Position numbers and translations under genes: made by a program
Shown: positions 3,861 to 38,603 of the stretch, one piece after another
Numbering within the stretch: the first letter of the stretch is position 1
How the letters are laid out: each line of letters begins with the position of its first letter
The notes under the pieces: generated by a model
What the model saw: only the letters and a program-made list of their open reading frames with translations
What the model was told of the DNA's origin: nothing
The model's database searches: none
Assembly (NCBI RefSeq): GCF_004364125.1
Contig: NZ_SNZV01000006.1
Location: 124,001-188,000, forward strand
Direction of reading: 5' to 3'
From: Sphingobacterium paludis
GTDB lineage: Bacteria > Bacteroidota > Bacteroidia > Sphingobacteriales > Sphingobacteriaceae
DNA length: 64,000 nucleotides

Positions 3861-3933
3861 GATTCTGTAGCTCAGCTGGTAGAGCAATACACTTTTAATG
3901 TATGGGTCCTGGGTTCGAATCCCAGCGGGATCA
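3861..3933 (+). tRNA. tRNA-Lys (anticodon TTT)
   Basis: 73 nt folding as a full cloverleaf: acceptor stem GATTCTG with CGGGATC, D arm GCTC/GAGC, anticodon stem ATACA/TGTAT with loop CTTTTAA (anticodon TTT, reads AAA/AAG), T arm CTGGG/CCCAG with TTCGAAT loop, discriminator A. CCA is not encoded, so the 3' end must be trimmed and CCA added. Identical over its whole length to the gene at 15092. A tandem array of its own 3' tail follows immediately. Confidence 0.97.
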
Positions 3934-3934
3934 C

Positions 3935-4275
3935 GGAAGGCACAAGAAATTGTGCCTTTTTTGCTATTTAAGGGATTCGAACAGAAGGGTTGGGATGGGT
4001 TCGAACTCCCTCGTTCCGGACTTGTGTGCGGGGATGCGCGACGGAACATATCCCAGCGGGATCACGGAAGGCACAAGAAATTGTGCCTTTTTTGCTATTT
4101 AAGGGATTCGAACAGAAGGGTTGGGATGGGTTCGAACTCCCTCGTTCCGGACTTGTGTGCGGGGATGCGCGACGGAACATATCCCAGCGGGATCACGGAA
4201 GGCACAAGAAATTGTGCCTTTTTTGCTATTTAAGGGATTCGAACAAAGGGGTTGGGATGGGTTCGAACTCCCGGA
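3935..4275 (+). repeat. tRNA-tail tandem array, 131-bp unit, 2.6 copies
   Basis: Units start at 3935, 4066 and 4197 (exact 131-base period; the first two look identical, the third stops after GGGTTCGAACTCCC and reads GGATCA). Each full unit holds a terminator hairpin, a spacer, a core with GGGTTCGAACTCCC and the stem GTTCCG...CGGAAC, and ends in a copy of the tRNA 3' tail (TCCCAGCGGGATCAC). GTTGGGAT at the core start pairs with ATCCCAGC of the tail. Frames through the array are not proteins: the period is not a multiple of three. The core recurs at 15166-15415 and 17925-18052. Confidence 0.9.
3937..3964 (+). terminator. Rho-independent terminator of tRNA-Lys, duplicated in each array unit
   Basis: Stem AAGGCACAA / TTGTGCCTT with GAAA tetraloop and a T run, starting four bases past the tRNA. 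Copies recur 131 and 262 bases downstream, so read-through RNA meets up to three terminators. Confidence 0.85.
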
Positions 4276-4326
4276 TCATTTACAAAAGTTGTGGAGGAGA
4301 TAAAAAATAATTAGATCTTTGTTGCT

Positions 4327-15091: not shown

Positions 15092-15164
15092 GATTCTGTA
15101 GCTCAGCTGGTAGAGCAATACACTTTTAATGTATGGGTCCTGGGTTCGAATCCCAGCGGGATCA
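15092..15164 (+). tRNA. tRNA-Lys (anticodon TTT), second identical copy
   Basis: Identical in all 73 positions to the tRNA at 3861, with the same -7 region (TACCTTTG at 15042-15049). Loop CTTTTAA gives anticodon TTT. CCA not encoded. Followed at once by a different tail array whose terminator is unrelated in sequence to that of the first locus. Confidence 0.97.
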
Positions 15165-15165
15165 C

Positions 15166-15415
15166 AAAAAAAGCTCAATCGAAAGATTGGGCTTTTTTTG
15201 TGCGCTGGGATGAGAACCCAAGGGTTCGAACTCCCTCGTTCCGGACTTGTGTGCGGGGATGCGCGACGGAACATATCCCAGCGGGATCACAAAAAAAGCT
15301 CAATCGAAAGATTGGGCTTTTTTTGTGCGCTGGGATGAGAACCCAAGGGTTCGAACTCCCTCGTTCCGGACTTGTGTACGGGGATGCGCGACGGAACATA
15401 TCCCAGCGGGATCAA
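15166..15415 (+). repeat. tRNA-tail tandem array, 125-bp unit, two copies
   Basis: Units 15166-15290 and 15291-15415. Each consists of a terminator (AAGCTCAATC-GAAA-GATTGGGCTT), then CGCTGGGAT (15203-15211), core GGGTTCGAACTCCC plus GTTCCG...CGGAAC, and the tRNA tail; CGCTGGGAT pairs perfectly with ATCCCAGCG (15275-15283). The second unit differs by GTGTAC for GTGTGC and ends in A instead of C. The core is the same as at 3935-4275, but terminator and spacer are not, so the core arrived first and the local flank was then duplicated (inference). Confidence 0.9.
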
Positions 15416-15447
15416 TTTGAAGATTCTTATAGAAAAGAAGACCTAAG

Positions 15448-16026
15448 CTAGCGCAAGCTCTTTTTCCGAATCCTACTCAATGTTTCCCTTGATATTCCCA
15501 AATAGGAAGCGATCTGGTGCAGCGGAAAGCGTTGAATCATGTCCGGATGACGGTCGACGAAACTTTCGTAACGTTCCAGCGCACTGAGGCTTATCGAATC
15601 GTCAACCCGGCTTTGCAAAGCAATATGATTGTTTTCACTCATTTTCCAAAATGTTGCTTTCACGCTCGGAATCGCTAAGAAAGAATCAAGGTTATGTCTA
15701 GGAAAAACCAACAATTCTGTGTTCTCCCAAGCTTCGATATAATATTTTGACGGGGTTTGGTTGATAAAACTTTGCCGGTCAACGATCCACCAGTTTTCTG
15801 TAGCCAGTTGAAGAATGTATTCAATGCCATGACTATCTATACTAAACTGCCGGATAGCTCCCTTTAATATAAAGCCTGTATAGAGACAAACATTGCCCTC
15901 TTCCAGAAAATATTGTTTCTTTCTTAGTTTTTTAGGCACGAGCAGCGACTCGATCTGTTCTTTTTCTTCCGATGAAAGACTTGAATCGCTATAACGTTCG
16001 ATATAATCAAAAAGTGGTTTGTACAT
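15448..16026 (-). CDS. Crp/Fnr-family transcriptional regulator
   Basis: 192 aa counted from ATG 16026 (MYKPLFDYIERYSDSS); the longer frame to 16056 adds ten non-family residues. Beta-roll domain about 20-115 with LRKKQYFLEEGNVCLYTGFILKGAIR, and C-terminal helix-turn-helix ending QIASYLGISRETLSRIRKK. No iron-sulfur cysteines. Divergent from an isochorismatase-like hydrolase and a pirin, the probable targets. The closest candidate site is TTGACATTTATCAC at 16294-16307, an Fnr-like half-site pair. Confidence 0.85.
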   Translation of the reverse strand: MYKPLFDYIERYSDSSLSSEEKEQIESLLVPKKLRKKQYFLEEGNVCLYTGFILKGAIRQFSIDSHGIEYILQLATENWWIVDRQSFINQTPSKYYIEAWENTELLVFPRHNLDSFLAIPSVKATFWKMSENNHIALQSRVDDSISLSALERYESFVDRHPDMIQRFPLHQIASYLGISRETLSRIRKKSLR

Positions 16027-16116
16027 CTGTTTTTTGAAAGCTGTTAAGGCACGCAATCTATCAAATTTAAAATTTTTTCACTATTGAAGCTGAATATTTC
16101 TACGAGTAGATAGAGA

Positions 16117-16257
16117 CTGCTCGAAGCGCCCCGCAATGATGAACAGCTAAGCAGCCTATCGTTACCGGAAGGAAGGAATAGTGTCTACCATGAAAACCTG
16201 GCGATCTTGCACTACGTAAGTGGCCCGTATAAAAACAAACAATGGAGCATGAGATAA
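16117..16257 (+). other. Possible gene fossil in the regulator-hydrolase gap
   Basis: A stop-bounded frame without start codon reads LLEAPRNDEQLSSLSLPEG, then YHENLAILHYVSGPYKNKQW before TAA. The composition is protein-like, but no family is recognised. It may be the remnant of a gene deleted from its 5' end; chance remains possible. Confidence 0.2.
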
Positions 16258-16353
16258 ACGAGTAAGGCGATAAATGCAAATTAATTTCTACAATTGACAT
16301 TTATCACTGTTTTTTTGTGTCAAATATCAACGTCCAAGTAAAACCATTCCACG

Positions 16354-16361
16354 TAATTTTG
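16354..16361 (+). promoter_or_regulatory. -7 box for the isochorismatase-pirin transcript
   Basis: TAATTTTG matches TAnnTTTG; start of transcription would fall near 16367, giving a 65-base leader. An inverted repeat TTGACA (16294-16299) / TGTCAA (16318-16323) lies upstream and may bind the divergent Crp/Fnr protein. Confidence 0.4.
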
Positions 16362-16430
16362 TTTTACACATTAAGCAATCATCAAGCTGATGTACATAAA
16401 CAAAATAATATTAATTTAAAAACATTTATT

Positions 16431-17006
16431 ATGCACACAAAGGCATTCACCCCAGAAAACGCAGCCATGCTGCTTATTGATCATCAAGTAGGAACAATGG
16501 CTTGGACACATTCGCATGACATCAATTTAGTGAAGCAAAACACTATTAAACTGGCGAAAATTGCAAAAGCGCTCAATTTACCCGTGATTCTAACATCAAG
16601 CATGGAAGATCATGCGCAAGGACCGCTCATTGACGAGTTAAAGGAAATTTTACCCGAGGCTTATGAAGCACGTGTTAAAAGACCAGGAATCGTAAACGCG
16701 ATGCATCACCAAGGTTTCAATAATGCTGTAAAAGCCGTAGGTAGGAAAAAGCTATTTGTGGCTGGGATTACAACGGAGATCTGTGTTACGTTTCCCGTCT
16801 TACAAATGTTAGATGAAGGCTATGACGTTCAAGTTTCTGCCGATGCATCGGCGTCTTACACCCAGTACGGTGATAACTTGGCACTAGAAAGAATGAGACA
16901 AGCAGGAGCAGTGATCACAACGGTAGATCAGATTATCTCCGAGCTGGCAATCGACTGGACAAGTCCGAACGGACAAAAATTGATTGGAATTTTAAACTAT
17001 CAATAA
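16431..17006 (+). CDS. Isochorismatase-family cysteine hydrolase (YcaC-like)
   Basis: 191 aa from the ATG at 16431; upstream codons in frame are not family-like. Catalytic triad residues of the family are visible: Asp17 (LLIDHQ), Lys83 (RVKRPG) and Cys118 (TTEICV), with the non-proline cis-peptide region before the cysteine. Length and the GTMAW segment match YcaC-type hydrolases of unknown substrate, more than nicotinamidase. The pirin gene follows after 70 bases on the same strand, and a divergent Crp/Fnr gene lies upstream, so this is probably a regulated two-gene unit. Confidence 0.88.
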   Translation: MHTKAFTPENAAMLLIDHQVGTMAWTHSHDINLVKQNTIKLAKIAKALNLPVILTSSMEDHAQGPLIDELKEILPEAYEARVKRPGIVNAMHHQGFNNAVKAVGRKKLFVAGITTEICVTFPVLQMLDEGYDVQVSADASASYTQYGDNLALERMRQAGAVITTVDQIISELAIDWTSPNGQKLIGILNYQ

Positions 17007-17076
17007 AATAAGGTTGGAACATTACCCTCTCATTGTTTAACAACGCGCATCTTTTGCTTTAATTAAAAAACAGGTT

Positions 17077-17808
17077 ATGAAAATCATCAGAGCTTCAGAA
17101 AAGCACACCCATGGGAATCATCTTTTTCAGATAAGTATAGTATACCCGGGAACAAAATTGAATAATAAAGATACTGGCTTTTTGTCCATCGGGCGAATTG
17201 ACCACGCATCATTCAAGCCTCCTGGGCTAGTTCCCATGCATCCTCATCGGGATGATGAAATACTCTCTTATATGCGTTCGGGTAAGATGGTTCATCGAGA
17301 CAGCACAGGACAGGAAGAGCACCTTAACAATCGGTATATGATGCTCATGAATGCCGGCAGCGGCATTTCACACGAAGAACGTGCTGAAGAAGATGTAGAA
17401 ATGCTACAGATCTTTATGCGACCCTCTGAACGATATTTGCCGCCAATGGTTCAGTTCCATCAATTTGCCAATGTTTATAGTGAAAACGCTTGGAGACTTA
17501 TTGCAGGAAACCATCCCGATGCACCATTAACATTGCGGGTTGATACGAATATTTCTGATGTCAGATTACGTGAAAACACCTCCATTGAAATTCCGGATAA
17601 CAAGGATGATAGTGTTTACTTTCTTTATTGTTTTAACGGAAATATTGAGATCGGAAATGAATTACTTACAAAAGGTGACAGCGTATTTCTGGAAGATAAT
17701 GTATTTATCAAAGCAATATCCGACAGTGATCTGATCCTGTTCGAGATAAAAAAAGATGCACAGTACAGCGATGAAGGGATGTTTAGTGGAAACAAACTCG
17801 CTTTATAA
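17077..17808 (+). CDS. Pirin-family bicupin protein
   Basis: 243 aa. The N-terminal cupin carries the metal-binding set MHPHRDDEI (54-62) and GISHEER (96-102) typical of pirin/YhhW; the C-terminal cupin (about 150-240) lacks the motif, as is usual. Bacterial pirins of this type oxidise quercetin-like flavonoids or act as redox-sensing cofactors. Cytoplasmic. Downstream of the isochorismatase-like gene and likely co-transcribed; together they suggest handling of aromatic compounds or redox stress (inference). Confidence 0.88.
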   Translation: MKIIRASEKHTHGNHLFQISIVYPGTKLNNKDTGFLSIGRIDHASFKPPGLVPMHPHRDDEILSYMRSGKMVHRDSTGQEEHLNNRYMMLMNAGSGISHEERAEEDVEMLQIFMRPSERYLPPMVQFHQFANVYSENAWRLIAGNHPDAPLTLRVDTNISDVRLRENTSIEIPDNKDDSVYFLYCFNGNIEIGNELLTKGDSVFLEDNVFIKAISDSDLILFEIKKDAQYSDEGMFSGNKLAL

Positions 17809-17924
17809 GTTTTTTCCACCTGTTGAATCTTTAGCTATTTAAAACCACAAAGCATGTGCTGCTAAAACATGTAGAAGTTGGTCCCTACTAATTTTTTTGG
17901 ACAAGCTCAAAACGCAGCGTGCAC

Positions 17925-18052
17925 CACCATAAAAGCTCAATCGAAAGGTTGGGCTTTTATGGTGCGCTGGGATGAGACCCCAAGGGTTCGAACTCCCTCG
18001 TTCGGGACTTGTGTGCGGAGATGCGCGACGGAACATATCCCAGCGGGATCAC
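17925..18052 (+). repeat. Orphan tRNA-tail repeat unit without a tRNA
   Basis: One diverged unit of the array type: terminator hairpin AAGCTCAATC-GAAA-GGTTGGGCTT, CGCTGGGAT, core GGGTTCGAACTCCC, GTTCGG...CGGAAC and tail ATCCCAGCGGGATCAC. Here the terminator stem is extended by CACCATAAA/TTTATGGTG flanks. No tRNA precedes it. Its terminator and spacer match the 15166 array, 2.5 kb upstream, so it was probably copied from there. Confidence 0.8.
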
Positions 18053-38499: not shown

Positions 38500-38560
38500 G
38501 ACTAGATTAACAGATGCTGCCATGACTAAACGCGCGAGCGAGGTAAAGGGTCTGTTTGAA

Positions 38561-38603
38561 AGCTTACAGGTCGAGTTGGAAGCTTACAGGTCGAGTTGGA
38601 AGC
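38561..38603. repeat. Exact 20-bp tandem duplication
   Basis: AGCTTACAGGTCGAGTTGGA occurs twice back to back (38561-38580, 38581-38600), plus AGC of a third copy, in the gap between DUF4202 and the converging receptor. Recent slippage product; no function seen. Confidence 0.8.

Follow-up and report, generated by a model that had tools for sequence, protein, structure and literature searches.

Tandem units with tRNA tails behind RNA genes of Sphingobacteriaceae, candidate members of the tRNA-linked repeats

Escherichia coli K-12 carries 22 tRNA-linked repeats (TLRs) at ten loci, each ending in 18–19 bp of the RNA gene upstream of it; they were first described in 1978, and in 2021 still had no known function (PMC8144298). 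Two terminators flank the TLR of rrnB; read-through transcription reaches it, and in vitro it binds Hfq and CsrA (PMC8144298). For the repeat of tyrT, a published covariation analysis finds a helix framing a tandem GA (PMC8250186). In the literature searched, TLRs were described only in enterobacteria and their relatives.

The array considered here stands behind a tRNA-Lys gene in a window of 64,000 nucleotides from Sphingobacterium paludis, by which we mean the whole stretch of DNA that was analyzed. A preliminary description had likened it to the rtT repeats of E. coli tyrT (RF00391), and the comparison is right in kind, rtT being one of the TLRs. In both, tandem units lie downstream of a tRNA gene and end in that gene's own tail, and the order of parts is the same (antisense tail, GAACC:GGTTC helix, own tail). 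The rtT unit has antisense tail GGATGAGAA, followed by GGTTCGA and then by AATCC and the tail, so that its grammar can be written GGGGAAGGAT-GA-GAA...GGTTC-GA-middle-TAATCCTTCCCC tail; its predicted fold contains a P1 of 10 bp, and a long P1 is also predicted for the Bacteroidota units. The E. coli units differ in being ∼178 nt long, and no intrinsic terminator was seen in the E. coli unit that was read. RrA, RrB and RrF of E. coli share the succession of RNA gene, terminator, unit, tail copy and second terminator, but they stand behind 5S rRNA, whereas the Bacteroidota units stand behind tRNA or tmRNA (PMC8144298). Transcription and Hfq/CsrA binding are known for these E. coli TLRs. We read the array as TLRs of a kind typical for Sphingobacteriaceae, whose tails would be self-masking and would also provide spare attB sites, and give this reading about an even chance (probability roughly 0.5).

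Anatomy of the arrays in the window

Two covariance models were used for units, R1 (without the tail) and R2 (broader). The features of the window are as follows.

3861–3934, + strand: tRNA-Lys(UUU), T-arm CTGGGTTCGAATCCCAG (ARAGORN, Rfam tRNA)
3935–4065, + strand: unit 1 (R2 match 3972–4054, 97.8 bits)
3937–3962, + strand: unit 1 terminator (terminator-like hairpin 3937–3958)
3972–3982, + strand: unit 1 antisense T-arm, GGGATTCGAAC
3997–4006, + strand: unit 1 5′ half of the T-arm
4013–4018 with 4042–4047, + strand: unit 1 hairpin P3
4050–4065, + strand: unit 1 tail copy, ATCCCAGCGGGATCAC
4066–4196, + strand: unit 2, identical to unit 1 (R2 match 4103–4185, 97.8 bits)
4068–4089, + strand: unit 2 terminator-like hairpin
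4181–4196, + strand: unit 2 tail copy, ATCCCAGCGGGATCAC
4197–4272, + strand: unit 3, truncated before P3 (weak R2 match 4234–4319)
15092–15165, + strand: second tRNA-Lys(UUU)
15166–15414, + strand: second array, two 125-nt units (R2 matches 15207–15279 and 15332–15404)
15275–15290 and 15400–15414, + strand: tail copies of the second array
17918–18052, + strand: orphan unit without tRNA, with terminator, antisense T-arm, P3 and tail 18037–18052 (R2 match 17969–18041)

The tandem units reported behind the first tRNA-Lys were confirmed as two perfect 131-bp copies and a truncated third, as were their tail copies, each with a terminator-like hairpin before it. The repeats, with starts at 3919, 4050 and 4181, comprise two of 100% identity and then one that breaks near 4272, leaving unit 3 with a terminator (hairpin 4199–4220), the antisense T-arm and the 5′ half of the T-arm only. 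Every complete unit of this array ends in ATCCCAGCGGGATCAC, the last 16 nt of tRNA-Lys, which is slightly shorter than the 18–19 bp of the E. coli TLRs. An inverse tail copy had also been reported. It is present, but it is better placed at 3972–3982, as an antisense T-arm, than at GTTGGGAT. In Rfam scans of the array, only tRNA and tmRNA scored above cut-off.

In the second array the repeat, tRNA tail included, runs from 15150 to 15414 with a period of 125 bp. The cores of both tRNA-Lys arrays are identical over 69 nt and their terminators differ. Between the second array and the orphan unit (15415–17917), translations read by eye suggest a Crp/Fnr-like regulator, an isochorismatase-like hydrolase and a pirin-like protein; this segment is possibly the remnant of an island docked on a tail copy of the second array. 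Elsewhere in the window, a short tandem repeat with a 20-nt period occupies 38556–38603 (2.4 copies).

Units are built in the order terminator, antisense T-arm, 5′ half of the T-arm, hairpin, and 3′ half with acceptor tail. The antisense T-arm is GGGATTCGAAC or GGGATGAGAAC; it is followed by GGGTTCGA (the T-arm 5′ half), a linker, P3, and AATCCC with the acceptor tail. Read from its sequence, the unit thus shows the 3′ end of an RNA gene twice, first inverted and then in sense orientation with a hairpin in the T-loop. In some species, as at L022, the inverted copy keeps part of the antisense acceptor strand (TTTTTTTGTGCCCGCCTGGGATTCGAA). The inverted copy may have arisen by foldback through the terminator palindrome.

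Units carry the tail of their own RNA gene

The home genome (4.78 Mb, 27 contigs) gave 58 tRNA matches and one tmRNA. In a scan free of any model, the last 16 nt of each RNA gene were sought within ∼300 nt downstream, with tandem tRNA genes set aside. Copies with at least 13 of 16 matches were found at 7 of 57 RNA genes, namely tmRNA, tRNA-Ser (GGA, GCT and UGA), tRNA-Lys twice and tRNA-Pro(UGG); with reversed tails as the control, no gene of the home genome exceeded 11 of 16. A third tRNA-Lys, at C5:204383, has the left end of an island after it; Lys tails reappear in an array at C5:269177, ∼65 kb farther on, from which we infer that an island split the gene from its array. The ends of the intervening ∼65 kb (G000:C5:204445–269170) match an island family present in 34 of the 399 family genomes. 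The exact T-arm GGGTTCGAATCCC occurs at ten sites of the home genome, seven of which have units, the split Lys array counted; an eighth has the truncated left half of a unit. A low-scoring tRNA-like gene at G000:C7:89941–90020 (− strand), called as tRNA-Phe, has T-arm GGGGGTTCGAATCCCCC and is without a unit.

The preliminary description had proposed a search for the core beside tRNA genes of related genomes, and there it proved widespread: R2 found units in 122 of 399 Sphingobacteriaceae genomes (9 of 25 genera; 80 of 93 genus members), and R1 in 58 of the 93. Because the same architecture recurs in 122 of 399 genomes, including single-contig ones such as G098 with its eight units, the array is neither a chance arrangement nor the assembly artefact that had been named in advance as grounds for rejecting it. 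Within the genus, units stand behind tRNA-Lys, tRNA-Ser (GCT, GGA, UGA) and tmRNA, and in other genera also behind tRNA-Arg (CCG, UCU). As with the E. coli TLRs, they lie directly downstream of their genes (52 tRNA or tmRNA genes) and number one to several per locus, here 1 to 8. The 84 unit tails at these 52 genes have a mean identity, measured over 17–19 nt, of 94% to the tail of the neighboring gene versus 59% to the tails of other classes. Some tails have drifted from their tRNA, for example those of L127 and L064. Note that the tRNA-Ser(UGA) arrays of three species (L064, L127 and L136) share one drifted tail, ATCC(C/T)GAACGCTCCGCC, which matches no tRNA tail of the home genome.

When R2 was run across the class Bacteroidia, it gave only same-family matches at E ≤ 1e-5. 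The motif GGATGAGAAC...GGTTCGA, searched in 395 Bacteroidia genomes, matched in genus g20 of another family; within this genus there were 23 matches in 15 of 86 genomes versus one for the reversed control. Nearly all of the matches read there stand behind tRNA-Ser and end in its own tail, several of them without a terminator. A match in Rhodocyclaceae had no tRNA nearby and was set aside as chance.

The units were not filed as RF00391 because their scores lie below the curated cut-off of 45 bits (best 25.4 bits, at L043; best in the home genome 19.0 bits). The 4.78-Mb home genome has only three RF00391 matches at E ≤ 10, and all three fall on units of the tRNA-Ser(GGA) array. This placement is unlikely by chance, since units span only a few kb of the genome, and the three matches should be counted as one piece of evidence because they are near-copies of one another. 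The MicX and suhB families also give weak matches at unit loci. Most of the records labeled as plasmids that matched rtT were of doubtful plasmid status.

Covariation of P3 and the predicted fold

In 41 aligned units from Sphingobacteriaceae, 98.3% of P3 cells are paired, and five of the six pairs show two-sided changes. The covariation score of the whole structure was 0.289, versus 0.085 for shuffled alignments and at most 0.032 with the partners slid; the score is strong but carries no formal probability, as the shuffles leave relatedness in. P2 and P3 were recovered unaided by RNAalifold. Neither E. coli nor the second family scored better than shuffled sequence for P3 in a crude test of the stem, so the claim for P3 is restricted to Sphingobacteriaceae: the hairpin is established for these units and not for E. 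coli rtT. Integron attC sites are imperfect palindromes whose stems vary while pairing stays, and the likeness of the units to them is a loose analogy in just these respects. Two P3-like hairpins stand in tandem at L022 and L145 (∼17.1–17.8 kb) and at L135 (∼8.2–8.8 kb), with linkers such as AACTTTCTC.

P1 (GGGAT:ATCCC) is mostly invariant because the T-arm is invariant. At its outer positions the fit to the unit's own tail was 0.52, versus 0.39 for shuffled tails (maximum 0.456), a moderate difference only, and outside GGAT:ATCC the helix is weak. The predicted fold of the unit is internally paired, the antisense segment facing the tail copy and the T-arm half that the unit itself carries (GGAT:ATCC, GAAC:GTTC). 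Because such pairing is possible, the copied tail is probably hidden and not free to act as a decoy. In a single strand, whether read-through RNA or extruded DNA, the pairing of the antisense segment with the unit's own T-arm halves (P1 and P2) would be what hides the tail.

The strongest rival, which we consider unlikely, takes the unit to work as a read-through RNA in the manner of E. coli RrB. In its favor, the units share the layout of terminator, unit and terminator with E. coli rrB, for which read-through transcription and in vitro binding of Hfq and CsrA are known (PMC8144298). Opposite the fixed GA of GGTTCGA, 53 of 107 units have TC and 42 have GA (∼95 of 107 together), which gives Watson-Crick pairs or tandem G-A, and the published E. 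coli repeat is likewise reported to have a tandem GA (PMC8250186). The P3 loop, moreover, is conserved and strand-specific. The stems themselves lack one mark of RNA helices: the 33 distinct P3 stems contain 6 G-T and 8 A-C mismatches, so that G-T is not the commoner kind and this strand gives no sign of wobble tolerance of the RNA type; either DNA or RNA may be the selected form. Folded as RNA, the units give modest z-scores, from −0.3 to −2.4. The unit showed no promoter-like site when read by eye, and with a terminator standing before each unit, any unit RNA would require read-through.

Tail copies as integration sites

One island family, with left end TCTTGGGACAAG, was mapped across the 399 genomes and 30 of its junctions were read. 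Twenty-three lay on tRNA-Lys tails, of which a script scored 19 and reading by eye added four, in tRNA variants with GTTCGAGTCC or GTTCGAGCCC; five lay exactly on the copied tails of units and two on the ends of other islands. Tyrosine-integrase genes (Arm-DNA-bind_5, Phage_int_SAM_5) start ∼257–326 nt past unit tails in three genera. With junctions on unit tails and integrase genes close behind, unit tails therefore act as natural attB sites. No preference for them is shown, because 23 of 30 junctions are still on the tRNA itself. A literature search for Sphingobacterium tRNA-Lys islands found nothing. Behind tRNA-Pro(UGG) of the home genome, beside the gene for ribosomal protein L19 (L216, 12853–14640 on contig C8), the unit has behind it a tyrosine recombinase (PF00589), which is truncated, and a TIR-domain-like gene; this may be a defence island that sits on the unit tail.

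Tandem attB sites left by islands at tRNA genes likewise consist of directly repeated tRNA 3′ ends into which islands insert, but the units differ from them in having a conserved fold and a terminator and in being without integrase genes. P3 was considered as the right end of known islands and rejected, since the attR ends read are without it. An integrase dedicated to the units was also rejected; the integrases belong to islands that sit directly on tRNAs as well.

That the units are miniature mobile elements, spreading among T-arms of type GGTTCGAATCC by site-specific recombination with integrases supplied in trans, appears improbable. Direct tail repeats flank each unit on both sides, the units are specific for the T-arm, integrases lie nearby, and the 69-nt cores are identical at two loci despite different terminators. 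Transfer from one RNA gene to another would import the wrong tail, yet the tails match the host gene, and P3 is missing from the island attR ends. BLAST with the window unit found no match in plasmid and phage collections, and viral contigs gave no match or chance matches within coding sequence.

Still less probable is neutral debris, in which tandem duplications from integration and recombination would persist while serving no function. In its favor, loci hold anywhere from 1 to 8 copies, truncation or drift is frequent among units, and no match was obtained in 13 of 93 genus members; P3 stems that stay paired through many changes around a conserved loop, and a grammar that recurs in two Bacteroidia families and E. 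coli, speak against it. The proposal of the preliminary description, that unit transcripts act as free tail decoys competing for tRNA 3′-processing enzymes while the inverse tail disturbs the tRNA T-stem, is barely tenable, exact as the tail copies are (discriminator base and following C included), since within each unit the antisense segment complements the tail copy and pairs with it in the predicted fold, a terminator stands before every unit, and the change of TC to GA in so many units weakens antisense pairing with the tRNA.

Under the preferred reading of the units as self-masking TLRs, recombination between identical tails would let arrays grow, shrink and exchange cores, and would be the source of the identical cores at two loci. 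The main lasting effect would be at the DNA level, in spare attB sites downstream of the tRNA: an island that docks on a unit tail would leave the tRNA and its terminator untouched. The benefit is the weakest link of this reading, as most islands continue to use the tRNA tail and a fold would be superfluous at a plain landing site. Nor does a landing site by itself account for the conserved P3 loop or the three-stem layout. A further proposal, tentative and rather doubtful, is that TLRs are an old class spanning phyla and built to a fixed grammar, in which an antisense tail, a GA-flanked GAACC:GGTTC helix, a variable hairpin and the own tail follow in turn. A dedicated host factor, either a recombinase or an RNA-binding protein, would recognize the hairpin and so keep the units next to tRNA and tmRNA genes.

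The class itself is already known; new are the phylum, the breadth, the covarying hairpin, the logic of the antisense tail and the use of tails by islands. The TLR class gains a comparative data set, with scores of Sphingobacteriaceae species, a second family of Bacteroidia and several kinds of RNA gene, and it gains testable predictions: the own-tail rule, the masked tail, the spare attB and the read-through RNA.
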